Below are positions 23,963-46,176 of a DNA stretch of 64,000 bases, one piece after another (the stretch's first letter is position 1; each line of letters starts with the position of its first letter). The notes beneath the pieces were generated by a model, which saw only the letters and a program-made list of their open reading frames with translations, was not told the origin of the DNA and searched no databases. A program made the translations under genes and the position numbers. The stretch comes from Bacteroidales bacterium (GTDB taxonomy: Bacteria; Bacteroidota; Bacteroidia; Bacteroidales; UBA932). Where the stretch lies: the NCBI GenBank assembly GCA_017395045.1, contig JAFPWG010000027.1, forward strand, positions 62,001 to 126,000, written 5' to 3'.

Positions 23963-24693
23963 AGAAGTTCCTCCTTTTTGAATACCGGACCGTCCTTGCA
24001 TACGCGCCGGGGGCCGTTTTTCGTCTGAATGCTGCATCCGTAGCAGAATCCTGCGCCGCATCCCATCCGCTCTTCCAGCGAGACCTCTCCGGAACCCCGG
24101 ACCGCTGCGCATACGGCCTTCAGCATGGGTTTCGGCCCGCAGGCATAGAAATAATCGTAGGAGACATTCTTGATCCTCAGCACATCCGTGACAAATCCCT
24201 TTGTTCCGGCGGAACCGTCCATCGTGGCAATGTACACCTTCGCACCGAGTTCCTCGAACCGGTCCGCCAGCATCACTTCTTCCGCCGTGTTGAACCCCAG
24301 GATGACGGTGATCTCCTTGGACTGGGCGACGAGCTCCTTTGCCAGGAGGTAGAGCGGTGCGGTTCCGACTCCGCCACCGAGAAGGAGCGCTCTGCCCTGG
24401 CACGCATCGATGTCAAAACTGTTCCCCAGGCCCGTCAGGGCATTGACCTTGTCCCCGGGGCGTTTGGCGGAAAGTGCCGCCGTGCCTTCGCCGACGACCT
24501 TGTAAACAAGGGTCAGCGTCTCCCAGTCGCAGTCATGGACCGAAATCGGCCGACGCAGGAACTTGCCCTCGACGGCCACCTGGACGAACTCGCCGCTGCA
24601 GCAGATCGCAGAGGTGTCGCCGGCGAGTTTCATCCGGAAGGTCCGCGGCGCGACCGGATCGTTCTCCAGGACGGTGAAGGTCACTTCTTTCAT
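23956..24693 (-). CDS. pyrK: dihydroorotate dehydrogenase electron-transfer subunit
   Basis: The 245-residue FAD/2Fe-2S protein passes electrons from PyrD to NAD+. An N-terminal flavin domain (RPISVHD) leads to a nucleotide-binding LLLGGGVGTAPLYLLAK and a C-terminal cluster motif, GCGAGFCYGCSIQ, with a fourth Cys in RRVC. The ATG at 24693 shares one base with the carB stop (TGATG), a typical coupled start. Confidence 0.94.
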   Translation of the reverse strand: MKEVTFTVLENDPVAPRTFRMKLAGDTSAICCSGEFVQVAVEGKFLRRPISVHDCDWETLTLVYKVVGEGTAALSAKRPGDKVNALTGLGNSFDIDACQGRALLLGGGVGTAPLYLLAKELVAQSKEITVILGFNTAEEVMLADRFEELGAKVYIATMDGSAGTKGFVTDVLRIKNVSYDYFYACGPKPMLKAVCAAVRGSGEVSLEERMGCGAGFCYGCSIQTKNGPRRVCKDGPVFKKEELLW

Positions 24694-27600
24694 CACTTAT
24701 ACTCCTCGTCGATGGTTGAAATGCCCAGCGTAATCTCCTCCAGTACGTCCAGCAGCACGCGTACGGTCTCGAGGGCCGTGAAGATCGTGACGTTGTTCTC
24801 CACCGCGCAGCGGCGGATGCCGTAACCGTCCAGGTGGCTGGACTTCTGGTTCAGGTCGATGGTGTTGATCACGTATTTCACGTGGCCCTTGCGCAGGGCC
24901 TGGTAGATCTCGTCACTTCCCTCGCGCAGCTTCTTGAGGGTCTTGGTCCGGATGCCGTGCTCTTTCAGGAATTCGGCCGTTCCCTTGGTCGCCTCGATGT
25001 TGAAGCCCAGGTTGTAGAAGCGGCGGATCAGCGGAAGGGCCTCCTCCTTGTCCTTGTCGGCGATGGTCGCGAACACGGTCCCGTAGGACTTGATGTCCAT
25101 GCCGGAGGCCTGGAGAGACTTGAACAGCGCCCGGTTCAGGGACTTGTCGTAACCGATGGCTTCGCCGGTGGACTTCATCTCGGGGGAGAGGTAGGTGTCG
25201 ATGCCCTTGATCTTGCCGAAGGAGAAGGCGGGCGTCTTCACGAAGTGGCGCTTCCTCTCCGGGAAATAGACCTCGTTGATGCCCTGTTCCTTCAGGGAAT
25301 GGCCCAGCATCACCCGGGTGGCGATCTTCGCCATCGGGATGCCCGTGCTCTTGGAGATGAACGGGACGGTGCGGGAACTGCGCGGATTGACCTCGATCAC
25401 ATAGACGTTCTCGTCGCGGTCCACGATGAACTGGATGTTGAACAGGCCCACGATGCCGATCTCCTTACCCAGCTTGACGGTGTCGTCGATGATTTCCTGC
25501 TTCACCTTCGGACTCAGGCTGAAGGAGGGATAGACGCTGATGCTGTCGCCGGAGTGGATGCCGGTGCGTTCCACGTGCTCCATGATGGCCGGGATGAAGA
25601 CGTCGGTTCCGTCGCAGATGGCATCGACCTCCGTCTCCTTGCCCATGATGTACTTATCCACGAGCACCGGGGATTTCTCATTGATTTCCACCGCGTTGGC
25701 CAGGTAGTGGCGCAGGGTGGCCTCGTTCCCTACGATCATCATCGCGCGTCCGCCCAGCACGAAGCTCGGGCGCACCAGGACGGGGTAGCCGATGTCCTCG
25801 GCCGCCTTCACGCCTTCTTCCACGGTGGTGACGGCGTGCGCCTTGGGCTGCGGGATGCCGGTCTTCCGCATGATGGCCTCGAAGAGCTTGCGGTCCTCGG
25901 CGTTGTCGATGGCCTCCAAACCAGTGCCGATGAGCGGCACGTCGAATTCCTCCAGCGGACCGGCCAGGTTGATGGCCGTCTGCCCGCCGAGCGTGACGAT
26001 GACCCCTTCCGGTTTCTCCAGGTGGATCACGTTCATCACGTCCTCCGTGGTGAGCGGTTCGAAATAGAGCTTGTCGGAAATGGTATAGTCCGTGGAAACG
26101 GTCTCGGGGTTGTTGTTGATGATGATGGCCTCGTAGCCGGCCTCGCGGATGGCCCAGATGGCGTGGACGGTGGAATAGTCGAACTCCACGCCCTGGCCGA
26201 TGCGGATCGGGCCGGAGCCCAGCACCAGGATCTTCTTTCGGCCGGAAGGGATGGACTCGTTCTCCTGCTCGTAGGTGGAGTAGAAGTAGGGGACATAGGT
26301 ATCGTGTTCGGCGCAGCAGGAGTCGATCATCTTGTACACCGGGACGATGTCCTCCCGGAAGCGCAGGCGGATGACGTCGGCCTCCGTCCAGCCCCAGAGT
26401 TCGCCGATGAAGCGGTCGCCGAAGCCCATCCGCTTGGCCTCCCGCAGGATGGCGGGGTCGCCCGGGGCGGCCTTCACCCGACGCTCCATCCGGACGATGT
26501 TGTAGATCTTCTCCAGGAAGAGCATGTCGATCTTCGTGCGGTCGTAGATGCGGGACAGGTCGATGCGGAGGCGCAGCAGCTGGGCGATCGCGTGGATGCG
26601 GTCGTCGGTAGGCGTGGAGATGTACTCCAGCAGCTTCTCCTCGGTCCAGTCGTCGAACTTCTTCTTGTGGATGTGGCAGCAGCCGGATTCCAGGGAGCGC
26701 ATCGCCTTGAGGATGCTCTCCTCCAGGGTGCGGCCGATGCTCATTACCTCACCCGTCGCCTTCATCTGGGTGCCCAGTTCGTTGGAAGCCTCGCTGAACT
26801 TGTCGAAGGGGAAGCGGGCCACCTTGGCCACCACGTAGTCGATGGCGGGCTCGCAGCAGGCGGGGGCGCCGGCGACGGTGATCTCGTCCAGGGTGAGGCC
26901 CACGGCGATCTTGGCCGTGACGCGGGCGATCGGGAAGCCGCTCGCCTTGGAGGCGAGGGCCGACGAGCGCGACACGCGCGGATTGACCTCGATGATATAA
27001 TACTTGAACGACAGCGGGTCCAGGGCGAACTGGACGTTGCAGCCGCCGGCGATGTCCAGGGCGCGGATCAGGCGCAGGGCGCTGTCGCGGAGCATCTGGT
27101 ATTCCTTGTCCGTGAGGGTGAGGGCGGGGGCTACGACCATGGAATCGCCCGTATGGATGCCCACCGGGTCGATGTTCTCCATCGAGCAGATGGCGATGGC
27201 GGTGTCGTTGCTGTCGCGCATCACTTCGAACTCGATTTCCTTGTAGCCCTTGATGCTCTTCTCCACCAGTACTTCATGGACGGGGGACAGGTACAGCGCG
27301 TTCCGCATCATGTCCTCCATCTCCTCCGGGTTGTAGGCGAAGCCGCCGCCCGTGCCGCCCAGGGTGAACGCCGGGCGCAAGATTACCGGATAACCGATCC
27401 TTTCGGCCGCGGCCAGGCCTTCCTCTACGCTGTAGCAGATCTCGGAAGGGATCACGGGCTCGTCGATGGACAGGCACAGTTCCTTGAAGAGTTCGCGGTC
27501 CTCGGCCTTTTCGATGTTCTGGAAGGAAGTTCCCAGGATCTCGACGCCGCACTCTTCCAGAACCCCTTTCTTGGCCAGCTGGACGGCCAGGTTCAGGCCG

Positions 27601-27881
27601 GTCTGGCCTCCGAGTCCGGGCACGAGGGCGTCCGGCCGCTCGTAGCGGATGATCTTCGCCACGTATTCCAGGGTGAGCGGCTCCATGTACACCTTGTCGG
27701 CGATGTTGGGGTCCGTCATGATGGTGGCGGGGTTGGAGTTCACCAGGATCACCTGATACCCTTCTTCCTTGAGGGCGAGGCACGCCTGGGTGCCGGCATA
27801 GTCGAATTCCGCGGCCTGGCCGATCACGATCGGACCGGAGCCGATGACCATCACTTTCCTGATATCGTTTCTCCTAGGCAT
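24693..27881 (-). CDS. carB: carbamoyl-phosphate synthase, large subunit
   Basis: The 1062-residue protein uses bicarbonate, two ATP and ammonia to make carbamoyl phosphate. It has two homologous ATP-grasp halves, each opening with a glycine motif ([17 protein letters not shown] and [17 protein letters not shown]), and a C-terminal MGS-like regulatory domain (about 940-1062). All main motifs look intact, so synthesis from ammonia should work. Normally ammonia reaches it by a tunnel from the CarA glutaminase, but CarA here lacks the nucleophile. The two genes overlap by 8 bases. Confidence 0.95.
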
Positions 27882-28956
27882 TCTCGGGGCCCTCCATCAT
27901 TTGAATGAACTTGTCGAACAGATTCACGTTGTCCAAGGGACCGGGGGCCGATTCCAGGTGGAACTGCACGCCGTACACCTTGTCTTCCCTGTTCTCGAAT
28001 CCCAGGACGTATCCTTCGGGAACGAGCGCGTGGGTGGGGATGAGCGCCGTCCCTTCCAGGGTGTCGAACCGATAGGTCTGGTTCAGGACGGCGACGTTGA
28101 TGCGGCCCGTAGAGAGGTCGCGCACCGGATGGTCGCCGTGCATGCCGCAGCCCATCGGAACCAGTCTTGCACCGTATTCCAAGCCGATGGCCTCCATCCC
28201 GAGTCCGATGCCGAACACGGGGATCCGGCCCCTCAGTTCGGCGAACAGGGCGCGGATCTCAGGCGCTTCCAAAGCCGAGACGGGGCCGTTGGACAGCAGG
28301 ACGCCGTCCGGGTTGAAGGCGAGGATGTCTTTCGCGGAAGTAGTGAAGGGAACGATGGTTACGTTGCAGCCGCGCTCCTTCAGGCGGGAGAGGATGCTCT
28401 GCTTGATGCCGCAGTCCACGGCCACCACGTGGAAGCGGTGGTTGGACGTGCGGGTGACCCAGCGCTTGCGGCAGCTCACGCGGCGCACGAGATCCTTCGG
28501 ACGCTCCGTGGCGGCGATGAGGGCCAGGGCTTCCTCCCGGGGCATCTCCGCCTCCACGATGGCGGCCATGGGCCGGCCCGTATCGCGGATGATCTTGGTG
28601 AGCATCCGGGTGTCCACCCCGCTCAGGCAGGGGATTCCGTGCTCTTCCAGTTCCTCTTCCAGGGTCTTCGTATAACGGAAGTTGCTGGGCGTGTCGCAGC
28701 ATTCGCGCACCACCAGTCCGCCGATGTCCGTACCGTGGGATTCGAAATCTTCGTCCGTGATGCCGTAATTGCCGATGAGGGGATAGGTCATCACGACGAT
28801 CTGCTCCGCATAGGAGGGATCGGAGATAATCTCCTGGTAGCCGACCACCGAGGTGTTGAAGACGATTTCGCAGACTTTGCGGCAATCGGCTCCGAACCCG
28901 GTTCCGTAGAACTCCTCCCCGGTTTCCAGCACCAGTTTCTTCTGAGGTCTGATCAT
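27874..28956 (-). CDS. carA: carbamoyl-phosphate synthase small subunit, glutaminase nucleophile missing
   Basis: The 360-residue protein has the CarA-specific N-terminal domain ([20 protein letters not shown]) and a class I glutamine amidotransferase domain (about 180-355). In active CarA the nucleophile elbow reads GICLGHQ. Here it reads GIGLGME: the catalytic Cys is Gly251 (codon GGA at 28206-28204), and the glutamine-binding His-Gln are Met-Glu. The later NHGF loop is NQTY. The His and Glu of the triad remain in FHLESAPGP. The protein probably keeps a structural role for CarB but cannot hydrolyse glutamine. It sits between pyrC (4-base overlap) and carB. Confidence 0.9.
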
Positions 28957-30221
28957 TTCTTGTTCAACTGATTATATACTAACTTACCATTCTTGAGATG
29001 GAGGACGACGCGCCCCCTGACTTCCCATCCTTCAAACGGAGTCGCCTTCCCCTTGGAGGCGAATTCGGCGGGATCGATGACGAAGGGATCGTCCGTGTCG
29101 ATGACGGCGATGTCCGCCGGGGCCCCGGGCTCCAGGGCGCCGCCGATCCGGAAGATGCGGCGGGGCGCGGTCGTCATCGCTTCCAGCAGGCGTGCCAGCG
29201 GGACGCGCCCGGTCAGGACCAGCTTTGTGTACAGGACCGGGAACGCCGTTTCCAGGCCCACGATGCCCATGGCGCTGCCTGCCAGTCCCCGGCTCTTCTC
29301 CTCCGCCGTATGCGGTGCATGGTCCGTGGCGATGGCGTCGATGGTCCCGTCCAGGAGTCCCTCGATCAGGGCTTCCCGGTCGTCCGCGCTCCGCAGGGGC
29401 GGATTCATCTTGAAGCGTCCCTCTTCCTGCAGGTCATCTTCGCACAGGGTCAGGTAGTGGGGACCCGTCTCGCAGGTCACGCGCACCCCGCGCGCTTTCG
29501 CGGCCCGGATCAGTTCCACGCTCTCGCGCGTGGAAATATGACATACATGGTATCGGCAGCCGGTTTCTTCGCAGAGCTTCAGGTCGCGGGCGATCTGCCC
29601 CCACTCGCTTTCGGAGCAGATGCCCCGGTGGCCGTGTGCGGCGGCATAACGGCCGTCGTGGATATAGCCCCCGTGGAGGAGTCGGTTGTCTTCGCAGTGG
29701 GCGGCGAGGATGACGTCCTCGCGGGCCGCGGCTTCCATTGCCGCGCGCATGACGGCCTCGTCCTGGACGCCGCTGCCGTCGTCGGAGAAGGCGACGCAGC
29801 GGTCTTTCAACGCGTGGAAATCCACCAGTTCCAGTCCCTTCCTCCCTTTTGTGATGGAGCAGTAAGGGAGCACGTCCACGACGGCATCCCGGTCGATGGC
29901 TTCCTGTTCGACGGCCAGCGTTTCCAGGCTGTCGGGGACGGGATCCAGGTTGGGCATCGGGCAGACGACGCCGTAGCCGCCCCGGGCCGCGGCCATCGAA
30001 CCGGTGGCGATGGTCTCCTTGGCCGTGTAACCGGGTTCCCGGAAGTGGACGTGGATGTCGGCGAAGGAAAGGGTGACCAGCTTGCCGGATACGTCCGTTA
30101 TCTCCGCCCCTTCCGGAGCCGGAAGGTCCGGACCGATACCGGCGATGCGTCCGTCCCGGACGAGGATATCCCCGTCCCGGCCGGCAATCTTCCCTCCCTT
30201 GAGCAGCAGGTTTCCTTTCAT
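28953..30221 (-). CDS. pyrC: dihydroorotase
   Basis: The 422-residue zinc amidohydrolase closes carbamoyl aspartate to dihydroorotate (step 3). The metal motif is DIHVHFREPGYTAKE. The binding loops AAHCEDN and TDHAPHTAEEK follow, as in class I (PyrC of Gram-positives and Bacteroidetes). The ATG at 30221 (MKGNLLLKGGKIAG) is the start. A TTG 45 bases upstream in frame lies in the attenuator stem. It is the first structural gene of the eight-gene pyr operon. Confidence 0.94.
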   Translation of the reverse strand: MKGNLLLKGGKIAGRDGDILVRDGRIAGIGPDLPAPEGAEITDVSGKLVTLSFADIHVHFREPGYTAKETIATGSMAAARGGYGVVCPMPNLDPVPDSLETLAVEQEAIDRDAVVDVLPYCSITKGRKGLELVDFHALKDRCVAFSDDGSGVQDEAVMRAAMEAAAREDVILAAHCEDNRLLHGGYIHDGRYAAAHGHRGICSESEWGQIARDLKLCEETGCRYHVCHISTRESVELIRAAKARGVRVTCETGPHYLTLCEDDLQEEGRFKMNPPLRSADDREALIEGLLDGTIDAIATDHAPHTAEEKSRGLAGSAMGIVGLETAFPVLYTKLVLTGRVPLARLLEAMTTAPRRIFRIGGALEPGAPADIAVIDTDDPFVIDPAEFASKGKATPFEGWEVRGRVVLHLKNGKLVYNQLNKK

Positions 30222-30228
30222 CACAAAC

Positions 30229-30255
30229 AAAAAAAAGACAACCCAACGGGCTGCC
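30229..30255 (-). terminator. attenuator-type terminator in the pyr leader
   Basis: On the minus strand GGCAGCCC (30255-30248), a 3-base loop and GGGTTGTC (30244-30237) form an 8-pair stem with two G-U pairs, followed by eight T (30236-30229). It lies between the pyr promoter and the pyrC ATG, 7 bases before it. It must therefore be read through for the operon to be expressed, which is the layout of an attenuator. Confidence 0.75.
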
Positions 30256-30262
30256 TTGAAAA

Positions 30263-30340
30263 TCAAATACGAAATGAAAAGCGGACTTCACCGGCCATGC
30301 CGGCGCCGAAAGACGGAGATATGAAGTCCATACTCAACAT
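30263..30340 (-). CDS. possible pyr-operon leader peptide (25 codons)
   Basis: A short frame opens with ATG at 30340, a second ATG following at 30331, and ends with TGA at 30265-30263, 8 bases before the attenuator stem. A ribosome at that stop would cover the 5' arm of the stem and block termination. The last part of the frame and the bases after it (about 30278-30256) are strikingly U-rich in RNA, as in enterobacterial pyrL. The first ATG is almost at the predicted transcription start, so the second may be used. No homology is recognised; the call rests on position. Confidence 0.4.
   Translation of the reverse strand: MLSMDFISPSFGAGMAGEVRFSFRI
30283..30329 (-). promoter_or_regulatory. upstream hairpin in the pyr leader RNA
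   Basis: TGAAGTCC and GGACTTCA (plus-strand 30322-30329 and 30283-30290) form a perfect 8-base inverted repeat. It encloses an inner GC-rich hairpin, CCGGC-ATG-GCCGG. It would form before the U-rich pause region and the attenuator, and could act as a pause hairpin or a protein- or ligand-binding site. Confidence 0.5.
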
Positions 30341-30349
30341 TCCGGGTTG

Positions 30350-30382
30350 CAAAGATACTGCTTTTCAAGGGAATTCCCCAAA
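30350..30382 (-). promoter_or_regulatory. promoter of the pyr operon
   Basis: The minus strand has TTTG (30382-30379), a 21-base spacer and TATCTTTG (30357-30350). The -7 element is a full consensus match. The transcript would begin near 30343 and carry a leader of about 120 bases. Confidence 0.65.
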
Positions 30383-30448
30383 TATTTTCATTGAAAAATT
30401 TCAACAATCAGGGTGTTGAAAAAAAAAAGGAAAAAGTTGCGGAAAGGA

Positions 30449-30480
30449 TTTGCGCCGCTGGAATATTCGGATTAACTTTG
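30449..30480 (+). promoter_or_regulatory. promoter of the pur operon
   Basis: TTTG (30449-30452), 20 bases, then TAACTTTG (30473-30480), 23 bases before the purE ATG. It is divergent from the pyr promoter about 70 bases away, so purine and pyrimidine operons fire from one AT-rich control region. Confidence 0.75.
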
Positions 30481-30503
30481 CGTTCCGTTAGTAGAATCAC
30501 TGT

Positions 30504-30974
30504 ATGAGCAAGGTAGCCGTTATCATGGGCAGTGCCAGCGACTGGGATGTCATGTCCCCGGCCTGTTCCACCCTCGAATCATTCGGGATCCCCTACGAGA
30601 AGAGAGTTCTCAGCGCCCACCGCAACCCCGGACCGCTGGCGGACTATGTACGCGCCGCCCGGGACAACGGGTTCGACATCATCATCGCCGGCGCCGGAGG
30701 TGCCGCCCACCTGCCGGGCGTCATCGCCGCCCTGACCACCCTCCCGGTCATCGGCGTCCCGGTGAAGTCCAGGGCCCTGAACGGGCTGGACTCGCTCCTG
30801 TCCATCGTCCAGATGCCCTCCGGCATCCCCGTCGCGACGATGGCCATCGACGGGGCGAAGAACGCAGCCCTCTACGCCGTCGCCATCCTGGCCCTCCAGG
30901 ATGACTCCCTCCGAAAGAAACTGGAGGAATTCCGCCAGCAGCAGAGCGACAAAGTCCTGAGTACAATCATCTGA
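30504..30974 (+). CDS. purE: N5-carboxyaminoimidazole ribonucleotide mutase
   Basis: The 156-residue protein catalyses the CAIR-forming step of purine synthesis. [16 protein letters not shown] and [12 protein letters not shown] are the family signatures. Class I PurE needs PurK to make its substrate, but no purK is in this cluster, so purK lies elsewhere or CO2 is used directly. The ATG at 30504 follows the promoter closely. It is the first gene of the purine operon. Confidence 0.93.
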
Positions 30975-30980
30975 AATACA

Positions 30981-31010
30981 TGCCCACCCCCGCCACCGCG
31001 CCGGTGGGCA
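30981..31010 (+). terminator. hairpin between purE and purL, weak or partial terminator
   Basis: TGCCCACC (30981-30988) pairs with GGTGGGCA (31003-31010). It is followed by an interrupted T-run (TATCATTTTA), too poor for strong termination. Since no promoter is seen before purL, it probably only lowers or processes the message after purE. Confidence 0.45.
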
Positions 31011-31025
31011 TATCATTTTAATCCT

Positions 31026-34000
31026 ATGGAAAGCAGACGCATCTTTGTAGAGAAAAGGGAACAGTTCCGGGTGGAGGCAGCCAGCCTCCTCGCCGAATTC
31101 AACGAGAACCTGTCCCTGGACCTGCACTCCCTCCGTCTCCTGAACGTGTACGACTTGTTCGGCTTCTCCGATGACCTGCTGGAGAAAAGCCGTTACAGCG
31201 TGTTCGGGGAAGTGGTGACCGACGTGGTGACCGATTCCTTCCCGCTGGAGGGGAAGAAATACATCGCCGTGGAATACATTCCCGGCCAGTTCGACCAGCG
31301 GGCCTCTTCGGCCGTGGACTGTGTCCACCTGATCGACCCTGCCGCGGACATCGAGATCAAGAGTTCCCGCCTGCTCGTCTTTGACGACGGCACTTCCGAA
31401 CAGACGCTCGCGCGGATCCGGCACTATTTCATCAATCCCGTGGAAAGCCGTCCGAAGGACCTTGGCGTTCTGTCCCTCAGCGAGAAGGCCGATGTGAAGC
31501 CCCTGGAGGACCTTTCCGGTTTCACGGACCTTCCGCGGGAATCCTATGCCGCCTTCTGCAAGGCGCACGGCCTGGCGATGAACGCCGACGACCTGGGCGA
31601 GGTGGTGAAGTACTTCACGGCGGAAGGCCGCAATCCTTCCGAGACGGAGCTCCGCATCCTGGACACCTACTGGAGCGACCATTGCCGCCACACCACGTTT
31701 ACCTCCGAGATCGAGGAAATCACGGTGGATGAATCGTTCATGAAGGCGGAACTGGAATCCTCCCTGGACCTTTTCGAGAAGATGCGCTCGGACCTCGGAC
31801 GCGGGAACAAGCCCCGCTGCCTGATGGAACTGGCCACCCTCGGCGCCCGCTGGCTCCGCAAGCAGGGAAAGCTGGACAATCTGGAACAGAGCGAGGAGAA
31901 CAACGCCTGCAGCATCTTCGTGACCGTGGACGTGGACGGGAAGCCGGAGAAATGGCTCCTCCAGTTCAAGAATGAAACGCATAACCATCCGACCGAAATC
32001 GAGCCCTTCGGCGGTGCGGCGACCTGTCTGGGCGGCGCCATCCGCGACCCGCTCTCCGGCCGTGCCTACGTATATCAGGCGATGCGCGTGACGGGGGCGG
32101 GCGACATCTGTGCCTCCGTGGCCGACACCATCCCCGGTAAACTGCCGCAGCGGATGATCAGCCGCAAGGCGGCCGCCGGCTATTCCAGCTACGGCAACCA
32201 GATCGGCCTGGCAACCACCCACGTGCGGGAGATCTATTCCGATGGCTATACCGCCAAACGGATGGAGATCGGCGCGGTCGTCGGTGCCGTGAAGGCGGCG
32301 GACGTCCGCCGCGAACGTCCGGCTCCCGGCGACGTGATCCTGCTGCTCGGCGGCCGTACGGGTCGTGACGGGATTGGAGGAGCCACGGGTTCCTCCAAGG
32401 AACATACGGAGGCGTCGCTGGAAACTTGCGGCAGTGAGGTCCAGAAAGGTAACGCGCCGGAGGAACGCCAGCTCCAGCGGCTTTTCCGCCGTCCGGAAGT
32501 GACGCGCCTCATCAAGAAATCGAACGATTTCGGCGCAGGCGGCGTGAGTGTCGCCATCGGCGAACTGGCCGATGGGCTGGACATCTACCTGGAGCGCGTC
32601 CCGGCGAAATATGCCGGCCTGAATGCGACGGAACTGGCCATCAGCGAGTCTCAGGAGCGCATGGCCGTCGTCGTGGAAGCGGCTGACAAAGAGCGCTTCA
32701 TGGCGCTTTGCGGAGCTGACAACGTGGAGGTGACCCACGTGGCCGATGTGACGGATTCCGGCCGGATGCGGATGTTTGACGCCGGTGTGAAAGTCTGCGA
32801 CCTTTCCCGGGAGTTCATTGACAGCGCCGGCGCGAAGCATTATGCGAAGGCCGCCATCGGCGCCGTGGAAGACCGCGATCCGTTCCTGTGCGAACCGGAA
32901 GGGAGGTCGCTCCCTGAAAAGATGGTTGCGGTGATGTCCTCCCCGAACGTTGCTTCGCAGAAGGGCCTGGTGGAGATGTTCGATTCCACCGTGGGACGTT
33001 CCACCGTCCTGATGCCTTATGGCGGTGCCCGCCAGGCTACGGAAACGCAGGTCTCCGTCCAGAAACTCCCGGCTGCCGGATATACCGACACGGCCAGTGT
33101 GATGGCCTTCGGATACAATCCCGACCTGGCTGTCTGGAGCCCTTATCATTCAGCCGCCTATGCGGTCGTCGAGGCCTGCACGAAGGTCGCTTGCGCCGGT
33201 GCCGACTATTCGGGAATGCGCTTCTCCTATCAGGAGTACTTCGAGCGGATGACCTCCGACCCCCATACCTGGGGAAAGCCCCTTGCGGCCCTGTTGGGCA
33301 CGCTCAGGATGCAGGCGGAACTGGGCCTGCCGTCCATCGGCGGAAAGGATTCGATGAGCGGAACCTTCGAACACATCCACGTCCCTCCGACCCTGGTCGC
33401 CTTCGGCATCACGACGGTGGACGCCCGCACCGTCATCTCTCCGGAATTCAAGGCCCCCGGCCACAGGATCTACCTGATCCGGCATACCCCGCTTGCGAAC
33501 CGGATGCCGGATACGGATCAGCTCAAGGCCAACTGGTCCTTCCTGCATGACCGGATCCAGGACGGAACCGTCGTTTCCGCCTGGTCCCTCTCCTATGGCG
33601 GCGTCGCTGAAGCACTGGTTAAGATGGCGCTGGGTAATGCCCTGGGTGTAAATGTCCATGTCCCCGAGCGGGAATTGTTCTCCCTGGGCTATGGATCGGT
33701 GGTCGTGGAATCCGTCGGCACCCTTGATTTCCCCGCCGCCGTCCTGCTGGGCGAAGTGACCGCTTCCGGAATCCGGATCAACGGCGTGGAGATGCCGCTG
33801 GAGAGACTGGAGGAAGCCTGGGAGTCCCGGTACTTCAAGCTTTATCCGCCCCGGGTGAAGCCGGCTTTCGACGAGCCGGTTCCGGCCGTCTCCGCGGTTC
33901 CCTTCGACAAGAAGAATCTCGTCTGGCCGGGCGAACCGGTCGAGACGCCCCTGGTGTGCCTGCCGGTATTCCCGGGCACGAACTGCGACTATGACACGGC

Positions 34001-34715
34001 CAAGGCGTTCCGCCGGGCCGGTGCGGAAGTCCGTCCGTTCGTCTTCCGGAACCTGACGCCGGAGGACGTGCTTTCCTCCATCGATGCGCTGGCGGAGGAG
34101 ATTTCCAGGAGTCACATCCTCGCTTTCAGCGGCGGCTTCTCGTCCGGCGACGAACCGGACGGTAGCGGCAAGTTCATCGCCGACGTGATCGGCAATGCGA
34201 AGGTGGGAGCCGCGATTACGGCGCTTCTGGAACGCGGCGGCCTGGTCCTGGGCATCTGCAACGGTTTCCAGGCGCTGGTCAAGAGCGGCCTGCTCCCGTA
34301 TGGGAAGCTGGGTTGCGTGACACCCGGTTCCCCGACGCTTTTCCGCAACGACATCAACCGCCACATCTCGCTGGCCGCCACGACGGAGGTCGCTTCCGTG
34401 AATTCGCCCTGGCTGGCCGGATTTTCCCTCGGAGAGCGCCACAACATCGCTTTCAGCCATGGCGAAGGCAAGTTCGTCGTCGGTGAGGAACTGGCGCGGG
34501 AACTGTTTGCGAAGGGTCAGGTGGCCTTCCGGTATGTGGACAACCCGAACGGTTCCCATTACGACATCGAGGGCGTCCTGAGTCCCGACGGCCATATCCT
34601 GGGCAAGATGGGCCACAGCGAGCGTTATGAGGACAACCTTTTCAAGAACATCGCCGGCAACCGCCGTCAGCCGCTGTTCGAGAATGCAGTGAACTATTTC
34701 AAGAAAAAAGCATAA
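31026..34715 (+). CDS. purL: phosphoribosylformylglycinamidine synthase, single chain
   Basis: The 1229-residue enzyme converts FGAR to FGAM using ATP and glutamine. It contains the PurS-like N-terminus, two PurM-like ATP-binding halves (SDHCRHTTFTSEIEE, KNETHNHPTEIEPFGGAAT) and a C-terminal class I glutaminase. In contrast to CarA and PurF in this window, the glutaminase is intact: GICNGFQ carries Cys1078, and GHSER holds the His and Glu. The length is typical of the anaerobe-type one-chain PurL. It abuts purC directly. Confidence 0.95.
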   Translation: MESRRIFVEKREQFRVEAASLLAEFNENLSLDLHSLRLLNVYDLFGFSDDLLEKSRYSVFGEVVTDVVTDSFPLEGKKYIAVEYIPGQFDQRASSAVDCVHLIDPAADIEIKSSRLLVFDDGTSEQTLARIRHYFINPVESRPKDLGVLSLSEKADVKPLEDLSGFTDLPRESYAAFCKAHGLAMNADDLGEVVKYFTAEGRNPSETELRILDTYWSDHCRHTTFTSEIEEITVDESFMKAELESSLDLFEKMRSDLGRGNKPRCLMELATLGARWLRKQGKLDNLEQSEENNACSIFVTVDVDGKPEKWLLQFKNETHNHPTEIEPFGGAATCLGGAIRDPLSGRAYVYQAMRVTGAGDICASVADTIPGKLPQRMISRKAAAGYSSYGNQIGLATTHVREIYSDGYTAKRMEIGAVVGAVKAADVRRERPAPGDVILLLGGRTGRDGIGGATGSSKEHTEASLETCGSEVQKGNAPEERQLQRLFRRPEVTRLIKKSNDFGAGGVSVAIGELADGLDIYLERVPAKYAGLNATELAISESQERMAVVVEAADKERFMALCGADNVEVTHVADVTDSGRMRMFDAGVKVCDLSREFIDSAGAKHYAKAAIGAVEDRDPFLCEPEGRSLPEKMVAVMSSPNVASQKGLVEMFDSTVGRSTVLMPYGGARQATETQVSVQKLPAAGYTDTASVMAFGYNPDLAVWSPYHSAAYAVVEACTKVACAGADYSGMRFSYQEYFERMTSDPHTWGKPLAALLGTLRMQAELGLPSIGGKDSMSGTFEHIHVPPTLVAFGITTVDARTVISPEFKAPGHRIYLIRHTPLANRMPDTDQLKANWSFLHDRIQDGTVVSAWSLSYGGVAEALVKMALGNALGVNVHVPERELFSLGYGSVVVESVGTLDFPAAVLLGEVTASGIRINGVEMPLERLEEAWESRYFKLYPPRVKPAFDEPVPAVSAVPFDKKNLVWPGEPVETPLVCLPVFPGTNCDYDTAKAFRRAGAEVRPFVFRNLTPEDVLSSIDALAEEISRSHILAFSGGFSSGDEPDGSGKFIADVIGNAKVGAAITALLERGGLVLGICNGFQALVKSGLLPYGKLGCVTPGSPTLFRNDINRHISLAATTEVASVNSPWLAGFSLGERHNIAFSHGEGKFVVGEELARELFAKGQVAFRYVDNPNGSHYDIEGVLSPDGHILGKMGHSERYEDNLFKNIAGNRRQPLFENAVNYFKKKA

Positions 34716-35441
34716 ATGAACAAGGACAGACTGATTTTTGACGGGAACGAAAAGCAGGTCTTCTCGACCGACGATCCCAATATGGTCATTTTCCGGTACA
34801 AGGATGTGACCACGGCCTATCACGGAGTCAAGCGGGCCCGTTTCGCCGGCAAGGGCGCCCTCAACAACGAGATATCCGCCCTGCTGCTGGGCTATCTCAA
34901 CGAAAACGGCGTGGAAACCCATTTCGTCCAGAAGATCGGGGAACGCGAGCAGCTGTGCCGCAAGATCGAGATCATCCCCCTCGAAGTGGTCTTCCACAAC
35001 CGGATTGCCGGCTCCCTGGCCGCCAAGCTGGGCGTAGAGGACGGATTCAAGCCCGCCAACACCATCCTGGACCTGTGCTACAACAACGACGAGCTGGGCG
35101 ACCCGCTCATCAACCGGGACCAGGCTGCGGGCCTGGGCCTGGCCAGTTATCTCGAACTGGACGTGATGTACGACATCGTGCGCCGTTCGGGAAAACTCCT
35201 GACGGACCTGTTCGGAAAGGCAGGTATCGAACTGGTGGACGCCAAGTTCGAATTCGGCCGCGCGGCCGATACGGGCGCCATCATCATTTCCGATGAGATC
35301 AGTCCGGACACCTGCCGCCTGTGGGACCTGGAAACGGGGGAGCGCCTGGACAAGGACCGCTTCCGGCTGGACCTCGGCGACATGGTCGAATCCTATGGAA
35401 TCGTGCTGGAAAAGTTGAAGAACGTTTTTGACATAGACTGA
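34716..35441 (+). CDS. purC: SAICAR synthetase
   Basis: The 241-residue ATP-dependent ligase adds aspartate to CAIR. GNEKQVFSTDD and KIEIIPLEVVFHNRIAGSL are standard PurC motifs, and SPDTCRLWD lies near the C-terminus. It begins at the base after the purL stop and ends one base before the purF start region. Length and order are normal. Confidence 0.95.
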   Translation: MNKDRLIFDGNEKQVFSTDDPNMVIFRYKDVTTAYHGVKRARFAGKGALNNEISALLLGYLNENGVETHFVQKIGEREQLCRKIEIIPLEVVFHNRIAGSLAAKLGVEDGFKPANTILDLCYNNDELGDPLINRDQAAGLGLASYLELDVMYDIVRRSGKLLTDLFGKAGIELVDAKFEFGRAADTGAIIISDEISPDTCRLWDLETGERLDKDRFRLDLGDMVESYGIVLEKLKNVFDID

Positions 35442-35442
35442 G

Positions 35443-36798
35443 ATGGGCGTACTTGCAGTATACGGCGTCCCGGACGCATCGACCTATTTGTATTACGGAC
35501 TCCACAACCTCCAGCACCGGGGGCAGGAAGGAGGCGGCATCGCGACGTTCGACGGGAACGGCGTTTCCTACCGCTACCGCGGCCTGGGGCTCTTGAGCGA
35601 GATTTTCACCAACGGACAGGTCCAGAAGCTTCACGGACGCCTGGGCATCGGCGCCGTGAAGTATGCCAATGCTTCCCGGGACGGACTGGACAACGTGTGC
35701 CCGATCTTCTTCCGTCACCACTCCGGCGACTTTGCGGTCGCGAGTGACGGAAACCTTGTGAATTCCAAACAGTTGGCCCAATATCTCGAGAAGCGCGGCA
35801 CGATCTTCCAGACCGATACCGACGCGGAGATCCTCGCGCACCTGATCAAGAAGAGCGCGAACGAGGACCGTATCGTGAACATCGTCAAGGCCCTGAACAT
35901 GATGGAGGGCGGTTTTTCCTTTGTCGTGATGACGAAGAACCGCATCTATGCCGCCCGGGACAAGTACGGAATCAAGCCCCTTTGCATCGGTAAGCTGGGC
36001 GACGGCTATGTGGTGAGCAGCGAATCCTGCGCCTTCGGCATCATGGGTGCCGACTTCCTCCGCGACGTCCGTCCGGGCGAGATCGTGACGCTGGACCATC
36101 ACGGCATCCGCAGCACCATCTATTCGAAGTTCTGCAAACACCGGATGTGCGGCATGGAATACATCTACTTCGCCCGTCCCGACAGTGATATCGACGGCTG
36201 CAACGTGCACGCCTACCGGAAGGAGGCCGGCCGCCGCCTGTACCGGGAATGTCCGGTGGAGGCCGACATCGTCGTGGGCGTTCCGGAATCCAGCCTCAGC
36301 GCCGCGATGGGTTATGCGGAGGAGAGCGGCATCCCATACGAAATGGGCCTTGTGAAGCACAAGTATGTAGGCCGTACCTTTATCGAACCGGTCCAGTCGA
36401 TGCGCGAACTCGGGGTGAAAATGAAACTCTCCCCGGTGTACAGCATCGTCAAGGGCAAGCGCATCGTCCTGGTGGACGACTCCATCGTCCGCGGTACTAC
36501 TTCCCTGAAGATCGTGAAGCTCCTGCGTGAAGCCGGGGCGACGGAGGTGCACGTGCGCATCGCCAGCCCGATGATGCGTTTCACCTGCCATTACGGTGTG
36601 GATACTTCCACTCCGGAAGAACTCCTTTGCTCGCACCGGACCCTGGAGGAGGCGCGGCAGGCCATCGGCGCCGATTCCCTGGGCTACCTGAGTCCGGAAT
36701 CCACCCGCGATTCGGCCTTCGGCTGCGCGGATCCCTGCCAGGCCTGCTTCACGGGCGAGTATCCCACCCTTCTGTACGACTCTGAAATCGACGAATAA
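35443..36798 (+). CDS. purF: PRPP amidotransferase lacking the N-terminal catalytic cysteine
   Basis: The 451-residue protein makes phosphoribosylamine from PRPP. In active enzymes the mature chain starts with Cys1 (CGVFGIWG in B. subtilis). Here the gene starts at that very position with MGVLAVYG, and an in-frame TAG lies 9 bases before the ATG, so no upstream Cys can be added. Further glutaminase changes are Lys73 for Arg73 (GAVKYAN) and Asp for the oxyanion Asn101 (ASDGNL). Arg26 and Asp127 remain. The PRPP loop VLVDDSIVRGTTS, the loop YVGRTFI and the Fe-S cysteines (CGMEYIYF, TCHYG, CQACF) are intact, so the enzyme should work with free ammonia. Confidence 0.93.
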   Translation: MGVLAVYGVPDASTYLYYGLHNLQHRGQEGGGIATFDGNGVSYRYRGLGLLSEIFTNGQVQKLHGRLGIGAVKYANASRDGLDNVCPIFFRHHSGDFAVASDGNLVNSKQLAQYLEKRGTIFQTDTDAEILAHLIKKSANEDRIVNIVKALNMMEGGFSFVVMTKNRIYAARDKYGIKPLCIGKLGDGYVVSSESCAFGIMGADFLRDVRPGEIVTLDHHGIRSTIYSKFCKHRMCGMEYIYFARPDSDIDGCNVHAYRKEAGRRLYRECPVEADIVVGVPESSLSAAMGYAEESGIPYEMGLVKHKYVGRTFIEPVQSMRELGVKMKLSPVYSIVKGKRIVLVDDSIVRGTTSLKIVKLLREAGATEVHVRIASPMMRFTCHYGVDTSTPEELLCSHRTLEEARQAIGADSLGYLSPESTRDSAFGCADPCQACFTGEYPTLLYDSEIDE

Positions 36799-36800
36799 AT

Positions 36801-37832
36801 ATGGCTAAGACGTATGAGAACGCCGGCGTGAACCTGGAAGCCGGCTACGAAGTGGTCCGCCGCATCAAGCAGCATGTGGCGTCCACGGCCCGGACCGGGT
36901 CGATGGGGAACATCGGCTCCTTCGGCGGCATGTTCGACCTTTCCGCCCTGGGCGTGAAGGAACCCGTGCTGGTGAGCGGTACCGACGGCGTGGGCACCAA
37001 ACTGAAGATCGCCTTCGCGATGGACAAGCACGACACCATCGGCATCGATGCCGTGGCGATGTGCGTGAACGACGTGCTCGCGCAGGGTGCCGAGCCGCTC
37101 ATCTTCCTGGATTACGTGGCGCTGGGACACAACGTCCCGGCCAAGGTGGAGGCGATCGTCGCCGGTGTGGCGGAAGGCTGCCGCCAGGCGGGCTGCGCCC
37201 TCGTGGGCGGAGAAACGGCCGAGATGCCGGGTATGTATGATGACGGCGAATACGACATTGCAGGTTATACCACTGGTGTCGTTGAGAAGTCGAAACTGAT
37301 TGACGGCTCGAAGGTTAAGGTAGGTGATGTCCTGGTGGGCGTCGCTTCCAGCGGTGTCCATTCCAACGGTTTCAGCCTGGTCCGCAAGATTGTGGCCGAC
37401 GCCGGTCTCTCCTATGAGGATTCCATCCCCGAATTCGGTGGCCGGAAGCTCGGCGAGGTCCTGCTCACCCCGACGAAGATCTACGTGAAGCAGATGCTCC
37501 AGGTCCTCCGTGCCTGCGACGTACACGGTATCTGCCACATCACCGGCGGCGGTTTCGACGAGAACATCCCGCGTGTGCTGCAGGAAGGCCAGGGCCTCGA
37601 GATCCACGAGGGAACCTGGAACATCCTTCCGGTGTTCCGGATGCTGGAGAAGTGGGGGAATGTGCCGCATCGCGAGATGTTCAATATTTTCAACATGGGG
37701 GTCGGCATGGTCGCCGTCCTGGACGCCTCCGAGGCGGACAAGGCCATCGCCATCCTGGAATCCTGCGGGGAAAAGGCTTCGGTCATCGGTAAGGTGACGG
37801 ACGTTCCCGGGGTCAACATCGTCCTGCAATGA
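36801..37832 (+). CDS. purM: phosphoribosylformylglycinamidine cyclo-ligase (AIR synthetase)
   Basis: The 343-residue enzyme closes FGAM to AIR with ATP. LVSGTDGVGTKLKIAF, NDVLAQGAEPLIFLDY and LVGGETAEMPGMY are the standard PurM phrases. It starts 2 bases after purF and overlaps purN by 4 bases. No oddities are visible. Confidence 0.96.
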   Translation: MAKTYENAGVNLEAGYEVVRRIKQHVASTARTGSMGNIGSFGGMFDLSALGVKEPVLVSGTDGVGTKLKIAFAMDKHDTIGIDAVAMCVNDVLAQGAEPLIFLDYVALGHNVPAKVEAIVAGVAEGCRQAGCALVGGETAEMPGMYDDGEYDIAGYTTGVVEKSKLIDGSKVKVGDVLVGVASSGVHSNGFSLVRKIVADAGLSYEDSIPEFGGRKLGEVLLTPTKIYVKQMLQVLRACDVHGICHITGGGFDENIPRVLQEGQGLEIHEGTWNILPVFRMLEKWGNVPHREMFNIFNMGVGMVAVLDASEADKAIAILESCGEKASVIGKVTDVPGVNIVLQ

Positions 37833-38392
37833 AGAAGCGGTTAGCGGTCTTTGCCAGCGGGACCGGCTCGAATTTCGAGGCGATCGCCCGCGCCTGCGCC
37901 GACGGCGCGCTGGACGCCGAAGTGGCCGTGATGGTATGCGACAAGCCCGGTGCTGCCGTTATCGGCAAGGCGGAGCGTTTCGGGGTCGATACCTTCGTCT
38001 TCTCGCCGAAGTCCTATGCTTGCAAGGCCGACTTCGAAGCGGAGATCGTGAAGGTCCTGGACGGGAAGAAAGTGGACCTGGTATGCCTGGCGGGCTATAT
38101 GCGCATCGTGGGGGAAACCCTCCTGAACGCCTATGAAGGGAAGATCATCAACATCCATCCGTCCCTGCTGCCGGCCTTCAAAGGGGCCCATGCGGTGGAG
38201 GACGCCGTGGCTTACGGCGTGAAGGTGTACGGCATCTCGATCCATTGGGTCAATGCCGACCTGGACGGTGGGAAAATCATCGCCCAGCGGGCTTTCGACT
38301 ATGACGGGGACGATCCGGCCGAGGTGCACCGGATCGGTCAGAAGATCGAGCACCAACTGTATGTGGAAACCATAGCAAAACTGATAAAATGA
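37829..38392 (+). CDS. purN: phosphoribosylglycinamide formyltransferase
   Basis: The 187-residue enzyme transfers a formyl group from 10-formyl-THF to GAR. ASGTGSNFEAI binds the substrate phosphate, and the catalytic block reads KIINIHPSLLPAFKGAHA (Asn and His). FolD at the end of the operon would supply the folate cofactor. It overlaps purM and purH by 4 bases each. Confidence 0.95.
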   Translation: MKKRLAVFASGTGSNFEAIARACADGALDAEVAVMVCDKPGAAVIGKAERFGVDTFVFSPKSYACKADFEAEIVKVLDGKKVDLVCLAGYMRIVGETLLNAYEGKIINIHPSLLPAFKGAHAVEDAVAYGVKVYGISIHWVNADLDGGKIIAQRAFDYDGDDPAEVHRIGQKIEHQLYVETIAKLIK

Positions 38393-39918
38393 GAGCGTTA
38401 GTAAGTGTAAGCGACAAGACCGGCCTTGTGGACTTCGTCAAAGGCCTTGTGGACCTCGGATGGGAAATCATCGCCACCGGGGGAACTCAGAAACTGCTTG
38501 AGAGCCAGGGCGTCAAGACCATAGGCATCAGCGAGGTGACCGGATTCCCGGAGATTTGTGACGGCCGCGTGAAAACCCTTCACCCGAAGGTGCACGGGGG
38601 CATCCTCGCGCGCCGCGATGTCCCTGCCCATATGGAAACCCTGAAGGAGAACGGCATCGAGACCATTGAACTCGTGTGCGTGAACCTGTATCCTTTCCGG
38701 CAGACCATCGCCAAGGAGGGCGTCACCCTCGAGGACGCCATCGAGAACATCGACATCGGCGGTCCCTCCATGGTGCGCAGCGCGGCCAAGAACTGGCGCG
38801 ACGTCACCATCGTGTGCAATCCGGCCGACTACGATACCGTCCTCGCCGAGTTGCGCGAGAAGGGCGGTACGACCCCGGAAACCCGTTTGAAGCTCTCCGC
38901 CAAGGCCTATACCCACACGGCGGAATACGATGCTTGCATCGCCACCTATATGCGCAGGCAGGCGGGTCTCCCCGAGAAGCTTTTCCTCGAATACGACATC
39001 AAGCAGGGACTCCGCTACGGCGAAAACCCGCACCAGAGCGCGAACTTCTATGCCGCTATGGAGCCGGCCCCGTTCTCCCTGGCCTTCGCAAAGCAGATCC
39101 AGGGGAAGGAACTGTCCTACAACAACATCCAGGATGCGAATGCGGCCCTGAACGTGCTGCGGGACTTCGAGGAGCCCTTCTGCGTGGCCCTCAAGCATAT
39201 GAACCCTTGCGGTGCGGCCGTGGGCGCAACGATCGAGGAAGCCTGGCAGGCCGCCTATGAGGCCGACAAGGTGAGTATCTACGGCGGCATCGTGGGCGTG
39301 AACCGCGAACTGACCGCAGACGTGGCGCGCGGCATGAAGCCCATCTTCCTGGAGATCGTCATCGCCCCGTCCTTTACGCCTGAGGCCCTTGAGATTCTCT
39401 CCACCAAGAAGAACCTCCGCGTGATGCAGGTCGATATGACCCGTGACGGCAAGCCGGTTCCCCAGTATGTCAGCGTGAACGGCGGAATGCTCGTCCAACA
39501 ACTGGACACCCAGGTGGAGGCCGTCGTTCCGGAAATGTGCGTGACGAAGGTTCATCCCACGGCGCTGCAGCTGGCCGATGCGAACTTCGGCTGGAAGATC
39601 GTCAAGCACGTGAAATCCAATGCGATCGCCGTCGTCCGCGACAACCACACCATCGGCATCGGCGCCGGTCAGACCAACCGCGTCGGCTCCGCCGAGATCG
39701 CCCTCGAAGAGGCGAAGGCCGCCGGTTTCACGGAAGGGCTCGTGCTCGCTTCGGACGGCTTCCTGCCGTTTGACGACACGGTGGCCCTGGCTGCGAAATA
39801 CGGTGTGACCGTCATCGTCCAGCCGGGCGGCAGCATCCGTGACGCGGACGCCATCGCCAAGGCTGACGAACTGGGCATCACGATGCTGTTCACCGGTGTA
39901 AGACACTTCAAACACTGA
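38389..39918 (+). CDS. purH: AICAR transformylase / IMP cyclohydrolase
   Basis: The 509-residue bifunctional protein carries out the last two steps to IMP. The N-terminal MGS-like cyclohydrolase (IIATGGTQKLLESQGV, GRVKTLHPKVHGGILARR) is joined to the C-terminal transformylase (SYNNIQDANAAL, VALKHMNPCGAAVG, IGAGQTNRVGSAEIA). It overlaps purN by 4 bases and precedes purD by 5. Confidence 0.96.
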   Translation: MRALVSVSDKTGLVDFVKGLVDLGWEIIATGGTQKLLESQGVKTIGISEVTGFPEICDGRVKTLHPKVHGGILARRDVPAHMETLKENGIETIELVCVNLYPFRQTIAKEGVTLEDAIENIDIGGPSMVRSAAKNWRDVTIVCNPADYDTVLAELREKGGTTPETRLKLSAKAYTHTAEYDACIATYMRRQAGLPEKLFLEYDIKQGLRYGENPHQSANFYAAMEPAPFSLAFAKQIQGKELSYNNIQDANAALNVLRDFEEPFCVALKHMNPCGAAVGATIEEAWQAAYEADKVSIYGGIVGVNRELTADVARGMKPIFLEIVIAPSFTPEALEILSTKKNLRVMQVDMTRDGKPVPQYVSVNGGMLVQQLDTQVEAVVPEMCVTKVHPTALQLADANFGWKIVKHVKSNAIAVVRDNHTIGIGAGQTNRVGSAEIALEEAKAAGFTEGLVLASDGFLPFDDTVALAAKYGVTVIVQPGGSIRDADAIAKADELGITMLFTGVRHFKH

Positions 39919-39923
39919 TCATC

Positions 39924-41249
39924 ATGGACGCCGTATTTTGCAAACCGAGCATGTCGAACAAGTCGGATCCCAAGGATATCCGGTTCGAAGACTGTTTCCC
40001 GAAGACGGTCCTCGTCGTCGGCGGCGGTGGCCGTGAACACGCCATCGTGGATGCGCTGGCCCGTTCTCCGCAGGTGGGCAAGATCTATTGTGCACCCGGC
40101 AATGCAGGTATCGGTCTCGTGGCCGAGAACGTTCCTCTCAAGGATACGGACGTGGAAGGCCTGAAGGCTTTCGCGCTGGAGCATGGGGTGGACCTGACGG
40201 TCGTCGGGCCGGAAGCCGCCCTGGCTGTAGGCATCGTGGACGCTTTCCGCGCTGCCGGCCTCAAGATCTTCGGCCATACGAAGGAAGCTACGGCCATCGA
40301 GAGTTCCAAGGAGTTCGCGAAACGGCTCATGGAGAAATACGGTGTCCCCACAGCTTCCTATAAGGCTTTTTCCGATTACAACGAAGCACTTTCCTATGTT
40401 TCGTCCCGCCCGTTCCCGGCCGTCCTCAAGTACGACGGCCTGGCGGCCGGGAAGGGCGTAGTGATCGCACAGGACTTGTCCGAAGCGACGAAGGCCCTGG
40501 AAGACATGCTCCTGGACCATACCTTCGGGGCCGGGCGCGTCGTGGTGGAGGATTTCCTGACCGGGCCGGAGTTTTCCTTCCTGTGCTTCGTGGATGGTTC
40601 CCGCGTGTATCCGATGCCCCTTTCACAGGACCACAAGCGTGCTTATGACGGTGACAAGGGCCCGAATACCGGCGGTATGGGCGCCTACACGGGACTGCCT
40701 TTCATTACGGAAGAGGACCGCTGGTTCGCCTATCAGGAAATCATGTGCAAGACCGCCGCGGCCATGGTGGCCGAGGGGAAGCCGCTTTCCGGCGTGCTGT
40801 ACGGCGGCCTGATGAAGACCCCGCAGGGCATAAAGGTCATCGAGTTCAACGCCCGCTTCGGGGATCCCGAGACGGAAGTGGTCCTCCCGCTGCTGGAAAG
40901 CGACATCTATACCATCTTCGAATCCGTCGCGACGGGCGTGCCTGCTCCCGACACCGTCTGGCGCGAAGAGGTCACGCTGGGGGTCGTGCTGGCTTCCAAG
41001 GGATATCCGGGATCCTATCAGAAGGGCTACGAAATCCAGGGTTTGGACCAGGTCGACGGGATCGTGTTCCATATGGGCACCGCCTTCAGGGAAGGGAAGC
41101 TCGTCACGAACGGAGGCCGCGTCCTGATGGTCGTCGCTGGGGGACCGGACCTGGCTGCCGCCCGGGCGAAGGTATATGAAGAAGTCCGTAAGATCGGATG
41201 CGATAACTTATTCTACAGAAACGATATCGCGCACTGCGCATTTGAATAG
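39924..41249 (+). CDS. purD: phosphoribosylamine-glycine ligase
   Basis: The 441-residue ATP-grasp enzyme joins phosphoribosylamine and glycine. After an extra N-terminal stretch of about 27 residues come KTVLVVGGGGREHAI and the ATP-grasp motifs KYDGLAAGKGV and EFNARFGDPETEVV. The extension suggests that an internal ATG at 39951 could be the true start. The substrate is the unstable product of PurF, consistent with tight co-expression. Confidence 0.94.
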   Translation: MDAVFCKPSMSNKSDPKDIRFEDCFPKTVLVVGGGGREHAIVDALARSPQVGKIYCAPGNAGIGLVAENVPLKDTDVEGLKAFALEHGVDLTVVGPEAALAVGIVDAFRAAGLKIFGHTKEATAIESSKEFAKRLMEKYGVPTASYKAFSDYNEALSYVSSRPFPAVLKYDGLAAGKGVVIAQDLSEATKALEDMLLDHTFGAGRVVVEDFLTGPEFSFLCFVDGSRVYPMPLSQDHKRAYDGDKGPNTGGMGAYTGLPFITEEDRWFAYQEIMCKTAAAMVAEGKPLSGVLYGGLMKTPQGIKVIEFNARFGDPETEVVLPLLESDIYTIFESVATGVPAPDTVWREEVTLGVVLASKGYPGSYQKGYEIQGLDQVDGIVFHMGTAFREGKLVTNGGRVLMVVAGGPDLAAARAKVYEEVRKIGCDNLFYRNDIAHCAFE

Positions 41250-46155: not shown

Positions 46156-46176
46156 CTTCGCATAAAAGAACGTGCT

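Follow-up and report, generated by a model that had tools for sequence, protein, structure and literature searches.

Loss of the cysteine nucleophile of a glutaminase domain is compatible with ammonia-dependent activity in described enzymes. In published work (PMC3261824), Escherichia coli PurF without its cysteine is still active with ammonia, and a crenarchaeal homologue, PurF', is proposed as a possible ammonia-dependent phosphoribosyl pyrophosphate (PRPP) aminotransferase. Human carbamoyl phosphate synthetase 1 (CPS1), which carries Ser for Cys, also uses ammonia (PMC4655335). Here, we analyse a stretch of 64,000 nucleotides of a Bacteroidales bacterium (the window; contig JAFPWG010000027.1, positions 62,001 to 126,000, assembly GCA_017395045.1), in which back-to-back pyrimidine and purine operons each encode an amidotransferase with a dead glutaminase domain, CarA and PurF. 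The observation of these dead forms is real, conserved and under selection, and from their sequences the two proteins are probably working ammonia-dependent isozymes. What is new is a bacterial variant of already known ammonia-dependent forms of glutamine amidotransferases; no title describing a paired CarA/PurF glutaminase loss occurs among the literature matches listed, which says little beyond those matches.

The purF gene (35443..36798, plus strand) begins directly after purC, and its initiator ATG (35443..35445) occupies the place of Cys1 of the mature enzyme. Because the in-frame codons 5' of this ATG are the stop TAG, then ACT and GAG, there is no longer, Cys-bearing form of the protein, and an upstream in-frame start is excluded. 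The product belongs to the amidophosphoribosyltransferase family TIGR01134 (451.5 bits, curated cut-off 350) and aligns with Bacillus subtilis PurF (1ao0) at 518 bits. It departs from glutamine-dependent PurF in Cys1, replaced by Met, in the oxyanion-hole Asn, replaced by Asp (Asp102, 35746..35748), and in Arg73, replaced by Lys; T76 is changed to Asn (Lys73 to Asn76, 35659..35670) and H101 to Ser, and R26, G103 and D127 are retained in the alignment. The glutaminase of PurF is thus inactive, as the sequence-only reading of the window had claimed. A sequencing error at position 1 was rejected, given that Met is present in 80/80 named relatives; these were chosen as the closest matches, so that the count addresses sequencing error and little beyond. 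The nearest named relatives are Bacteroidales metagenome-assembled genomes (MAGs). Exposure of a new nucleophile by removal of the Met was also rejected, since residue 2 is mostly Gly (Ser in some) and other residues of the site are gone too.

We compared the protein with its relatives (234 open reading frame (ORF) matches, 169 of them distinct over 400 aligned residues). The 152 distinct sequences at ≥45% identity, together with the window protein and B. subtilis PurF, gave 153 rows after removal of window copies. When split by the residue at position 1, these comprise 110 Met-type and 43 Cys-type PurFs. The oxyanion Asn is replaced in every Met-type protein, by Glu in 65 and by Asp in 45; Asn stands at T76 in 109 of them, and R73 is Lys in 90 and Gln in 12. 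Cys-type proteins retain R26, R73, T76, the His, the Asn and D127 in 43/43. The residues of the phosphoribosyltransferase (PRTase) half and its PRPP loop (D345, D346, R350, G351, T352 and R311) are identical in 153/153, the window protein included. Columns invariant in the Cys types are displaced in the Met types at 13/64 positions of the glutaminase half and at 2/78 of the PRTase half (Fisher 7e-4; this and the Fisher tests below treat columns or genomes as independent, ignoring kinship and completeness). In trees from quick searches, with SH-like approximate likelihood ratio test (SH-aLRT) values as the support measure, the Met-type proteins form one clade (SH-aLRT 99.9; 48 Met representatives and 41 Cys types), sister to Cys-type PurFs from the same bacterial genus. 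No Met-type PurF was recognised outside the family in 387 other-family genomes of a 393-genome sample of the order, where matches of at least 57% are all Cys-type and weaker ones were incompletely read.

For Met-type PurF, the ratio of nonsynonymous to synonymous substitution rates (dN/dS) comes to 0.149 for the glutaminase half and to 0.053 for the PRTase half; the Cys types give 0.065 and 0.061 (597/3125 pairs for the Met types and 20/23 for the Cys types). These ratios show that the PRTase half of Met-type PurF is fully maintained and that constraint on its glutaminase half is relaxed without being absent. They also bear on the idea that these bacteria salvage nucleotides and that the pathway is eroding, with the glutaminase sites going first. 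A PurF match is absent from 30 of the 151 genomes of the genus and a CarA match from 43 of the 151, and PyrG and GlmS have no match in the window's genome, all of which would suit such decay. However, neither operon has interrupted ORFs, the PRTase half evolves under the constraint given above, and Met1 and an acidic residue at 102 are conserved in PurFs that share as little as 61% identity with the window protein. We therefore regard decay as very improbable.

The second dead domain is that of the pyrimidine-type CarA (carA, 27874..28956, minus strand, 360 amino acids), identified by profile score, alignment to E. coli CarA and tree. At the place of E. coli Cys269 it has Gly251 (codon GGA, 28204..28206, minus strand), so that the Cys-His-Glu triad is reduced to Gly-His-Glu; His333 and Glu335 remain. 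H272, Q273, G243 and H312 of the E. coli protein are Met, Glu, Val and Gln here, and the claim of an inactive CarA glutaminase is confirmed. The protein aligns with E. coli CarA at 241 bits and scores 331 bits with TIGR01368, above the curated cut-off of 307.35; automatic annotation may therefore label it as glutamine-hydrolysing. Its partner, the synthetase subunit CarB (carB, 24693..27881, minus strand, 1062 amino acids), aligns with residues 1-1036 of E. coli CarB at 1052 bits.

Among 127 CarA matches, 81 were distinct and the 76 at ≥33% identity were aligned. They fall into two kinds, a pyrimidine type (51 rows including the window) and an arginine or ancestral type (25 rows). The triad is broken in 49/51 of the former and in 0/25 of the latter. 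At the nucleophile position, the 51 pyrimidine-type proteins have Gly (37), Cys (6), Ser (3), Ala (3) or Asn (2), and in four of the six that keep Cys the triad His is replaced by Tyr. On the tree, the nucleophile residues need at least nine changes, and 33 Gly rows form one clade. The dN/dS of the glutaminase domain is 0.169 in the group that lost the Cys (N-terminal part, 0.119) and 0.110 in the Cys group (N-terminal part, 0.154).

The assembly of the window (G000) is 2.67 Mb in 42 contigs and 96% complete, and the window lies on a 250-kb contig. This genome also encodes a second CarA with an intact triad (GVCLGSQ; C21:12387-13442), inside an arginine gene cluster; no second PurF was found in it by protein search or with the TIGR01134 profile. 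Of the 13 Met-type genomes of the genus that are ≥95% complete, eight lack another PurF (G000, G264, G256, G210, G220, G162, G164 and G141) and five have one (G180, G181, G212, G084 and G140). The second TIGR01134 match in G256 and G162 is GlmS. In G256 (97% complete), a dead PurF and a Gly-type CarA are present, and intact forms were not found. Across the 151 genus genomes, Met-type PurF was detected in 49 (G119 and G128 are partial matches; a PurF fragment was counted as absent in G213 and as present in G140), pyrimidine-type CarA in 27 and both in 21. Met-type PurF accordingly occurs in 21/27 genomes with a pyrimidine-type CarA versus 28/124 without (Fisher 1e-7), bearing out the co-occurrence for which the sequence-only reading had asked. 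Its expectation that relatives would share both losses holds for these 21 genomes; it fails for the 28 of the 49 Met-type genomes that lack a pyrimidine-type CarA. Similarly, a pyrimidine-type CarA lies about 6.2-7.2 kb upstream of purF, in divergent orientation, at 22 of the 80 named purF loci, while 44 have no upstream CarA despite ≥8.2 kb of sequence (44/66 of those long enough; 14 are too short). Given these many genomes and loci without it, the loss of the PurF glutaminase is wider than that of CarA.

In the 21 genomes with both dead forms, a further copy of each of PurF and CarA is found in ten, a further CarA only in four and neither in seven (Fisher 0.004). The Cys was confirmed by reading in 10/10 of the second PurFs and 10/10 of the second CarAs of the ten dual genomes, and dead forms thus persist alongside intact ones in many genomes. 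The expected absence of intact paralogs therefore agrees with the searches for PurF in the window's genome assembly; it does not hold for CarA there, nor for either protein in these ten relatives. The same ten genomes would allow the Met-type PurF and Gly-type CarA to be regulatory or structural partners, with catalysis left to the intact paralogs, and the crenarchaeal PurF' also occurs alongside an intact PurF (PMC3261824). Against such pseudoenzymes, the Met-type PRTase half is as constrained as that of intact PurF and its catalytic motif is invariant, and no other PurF was found in the eight near-complete genomes named above, the window's among them. We consider this role quite unlikely.

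The ammonia-dependent reading accounts best for these observations, because Cys-less PurF and CPS1 are published users of ammonia and because selection has kept the synthase half of PurF. Both glutaminase domains are without the nucleophile and further residues of the glutamine site, and each synthase side (the PRTase half of PurF and CarB) is intact, that of PurF being under strong purifying selection. Free NH3 would enter the dead amidotransferase shell and travel on to CarB or to the active site of the PRTase half of PurF, yielding phosphoribosylamine and carbamoyl phosphate with no glutamine spent. Retention of the dead domain would reflect a dependence of the synthase half on it, be it for folding, assembly or the admission of ammonia. 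In many relatives, the dead isozymes would operate alongside a glutamine-dependent set (pyrG-purF-asnB-glmS and purF-carAB), giving a two-mode nitrogen system comparable to glutamate dehydrogenase versus glutamine synthetase/glutamate synthase. In the window's genome, no glutamine-dependent PurF was found, and an intact CarA is encoded in the arginine cluster.

Several observations weigh against ammonia-dependent isozymes. Met-type PurFs keep Arg26 in 110/110, Asp127 in 97/110 and Arg73 in 4/110, so that the glutamine site is partly retained, and purifying selection on a dead domain may mean that it has another role. For CarA, the displacement of invariant columns (10/43 in the glutaminase domain versus 2/34, p 0.056) is suggestive at most, and the distinction between Cys and not-Cys needs at least three changes on the tree; as no more than these three are needed, the number of independent CarA losses is not fixed. 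Genomes without a second PurF are often also without PyrG, whose gene accompanies the intact purF of relatives, and a missing region could mimic loss; the lack of a second PurF is read from MAGs, which have gaps. Finally, PurL, encoded in the same operon as purF (large form, 31026..34715, plus strand), keeps its glutaminase Cys1078 (codon TGC, 34257..34259), as had been noticed from the sequence.

The intact PurL raises the question of whether ammonia is supplied in trans, with the dead PurF and CarA drawing it from PurL, CarA1, GuaA, HisH or a free-standing glutaminase in a complex, glutamine still being spent. A scan of the window's genome with the PF00117 and PF13522 profiles showed that GuaA, HisH and CarA1 also keep the Cys. 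Five class I matches were obtained there, and one, an uncharacterised hydrolase-like protein, may be a donor. In the same genome, a GMP synthetase ATP-PPase of 327 amino acids that lacks any glutaminase domain (L325:5734-6717, C4) lies directly after a full-length guaA with intact Cys. This adjacency looks like sharing. The solo ATP-PPase may be a third ammonia-type enzyme. However, no free-standing glutaminase gene was seen in either operon, where some genes were named by reading, and an intact CarA was not found in G256. On balance, we think supply in trans unlikely. The selective loss at two entry points proposed from the sequence thus holds as an exchange of isozymes and not as a whole-cell abandonment of glutamine, given the Cys retained in GuaA, HisH, CarA1 and PurL. 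Of the other amidotransferases for which a survey had been suggested, GuaA and HisH keep the nucleophile in the window's genome, and PyrG and GlmS gave no match.

For PyrG, the absence of a match in the window's genome (96% complete) is repeated in G041 (100%), G264, G210 and G256, and a loss of PyrG would leave CTP to salvage. For GlmS, nothing in the window's genome exceeds the cut-off, and the profile matches only PurF's own half and an AgaS-family SIS protein, a sugar-isomerase relative (L327:1892-3034, C18). We did not use the GlmS absence as support: 14/24 genomes fall below the cut-off, including six of ten checked genomes without Met-type PurF (G041, G058, G072, G096, G107 and G254). 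No AsnB or second PurF was detected in the window's genome with the GATase_6 or TIGR01134 profiles, and no dedicated AsnB scan was made.

In relatives, these functions are encoded together in a block of pyrG, purF (long form), asnB and glmS (G121 at L345, C13; G180 at L346, C4; G174 at L350, C7). The block is partial in G223, G181 and G133, and an intact purF is accompanied by carAB and/or pyrG in G084, G263 and G255. Its presence varies among genomes: of the 21 genomes with both dead forms, ten have PyrG and a second PurF, ten have neither and one has PyrG only. This is the pattern expected if one region were missing from the assemblies, in which case the glutamine-dependent cluster would exist and both modes would always be present; G212, the best assembled Met-type genome (5 contigs), does carry a Cys-type PurF as well. 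Two results run counter to such an artefact. None of 130 ORFs of the block region in G121 and G180 (six frames, at least 120 amino acids) matched the outer 2.5 kb of the window genome's 42 contigs at >55% identity, the level above which matches were displayed. In addition, the acyltransferase gene that borders glmS in G121 and G180 corresponds to window 42133-43329, adjoining folD inside the 250-kb contig. These data favour a true loss of the block without proving it, and a binning artefact keeps a modest but real chance of being the explanation.

As to what drives the use of ammonia, the titles of 65/80 named relatives contain a ruminant word or the codes RUG or RUI, which we take to denote a ruminant source. 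Ammonia is high in the rumen. The likely driver would be the abundant ammonia of the ruminant gut, and the gut habitat suggested by the sequence-only reading is supported by the titles, its ecological story being plausible. The tryptophanase gene to which it pointed is real (915 bits, cut-off 750); a supply of ammonia by that enzyme is unsupported. On a more speculative level, the pocket of Met-type PurF might be an ammonium-capture site, in which Glu or Asp at the oxyanion position, together with Asn76 and residue 73 (Lys or Gln in most rows), binds NH4+ and feeds NH3 to the old tunnel. The paired operons would then form an ammonia mode, and pyrG-purF-asnB-glmS a separate glutamine mode whose genes tend to be all present or all missing. 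We hold this extended proposal to be doubtful, although a putative NH4+-attracting site would be expected to carry just such an acidic residue as is fixed at the oxyanion position.

The remaining genes of the two operons agree in order and strand with the adjacent, divergently transcribed arrangement first described. On the minus strand, pyrC (dihydroorotase, 28953..30266) precedes carA and carB, followed by pyrK (dihydroorotate dehydrogenase electron transfer subunit, 23956..24696), an ORF containing pyrF from about residue 145 (22359..23486), pyrE (21725..22354) and pyrB (aspartate carbamoyltransferase, 20631..21710), whose C-terminal tail weakly matches the regulatory chain. On the plus strand, purE (30504..30974) precedes purL, which is followed by purC (34716..35441), purF, purM (36801..37832), purN (37829..38392), purH (38389..39918), purD (39924..41249) and folD (41253..42110). 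The names purE, purC, purM and purN were given by reading, without a family scan, and asnB and HisH elsewhere were likewise named by reading. Downstream of the purine operon, past the relocated acyltransferase gene and one ORF, a gene resembling tyrosine recombinases lies together with an ORF6N gene (window 44779-47082); this is perhaps a mobile element.

If the ammonia-dependent reading is true, ruminant-gut-associated bacteria build their first purine and pyrimidine precursors from ammonia, bypassing glutamine, which is of relevance for models of rumen nitrogen. They would offer a natural bacterial example of the PurF postulated for archaea and an independent parallel to liver CPS I, as well as a direct, cheap system for asking how retained dead amidotransferase domains admit ammonia.

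Compared with E. coli CarA and B. subtilis PurF (1ao0), the window proteins have the same fold family and domain order but have lost the nucleophile and part of the glutamine pocket. Another family of Cys-less PurF-like proteins of Bacteroidales (MGGFFG or MSGFFG, with HSHLGT or NSHLGT) has Gly or Ser at position 1 and retains the PRPP loop in every row examined for it. It is about 30-37% identical and a separate family, with Val at the oxyanion position in 12 loci (L101-L112), and it was not found in the window's genome by protein search or with the TIGR01134 profile. Its loci (L101-L112 and L253-L263) are spread over many Bacteroidales families. The crenarchaeal PurF', compared here by description since our tree of bacterial PurFs holds no archaeal sequences, resembles the window PurF in being a homologue without the N-terminal Cys and in lying near purine genes (PMC3261824). 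Each of the crenarchaea studied there also encodes an intact PurF, and Ala or Val replaces the Cys in many PurF', whereas Met-type PurF has the initiator Met at the Cys place, an acidic oxyanion residue in 110/110, and is the sole PurF found in several near-complete genomes. Mammalian CPS I (PMC4655335) likewise keeps a glutaminase-like domain that is dead by loss of the Cys and takes external ammonia; it is a single urea-cycle chain of 1500 residues, activated by N-acetylglutamate, with Ser for Cys. Unlike this fused glutaminase-synthetase chain of the vertebrate family, the window enzyme consists of two separate subunits encoded in a pyrimidine operon, and it has Gly at the nucleophile position (Ser, Ala or Asn in relatives) together with further changes in the glutamine site.

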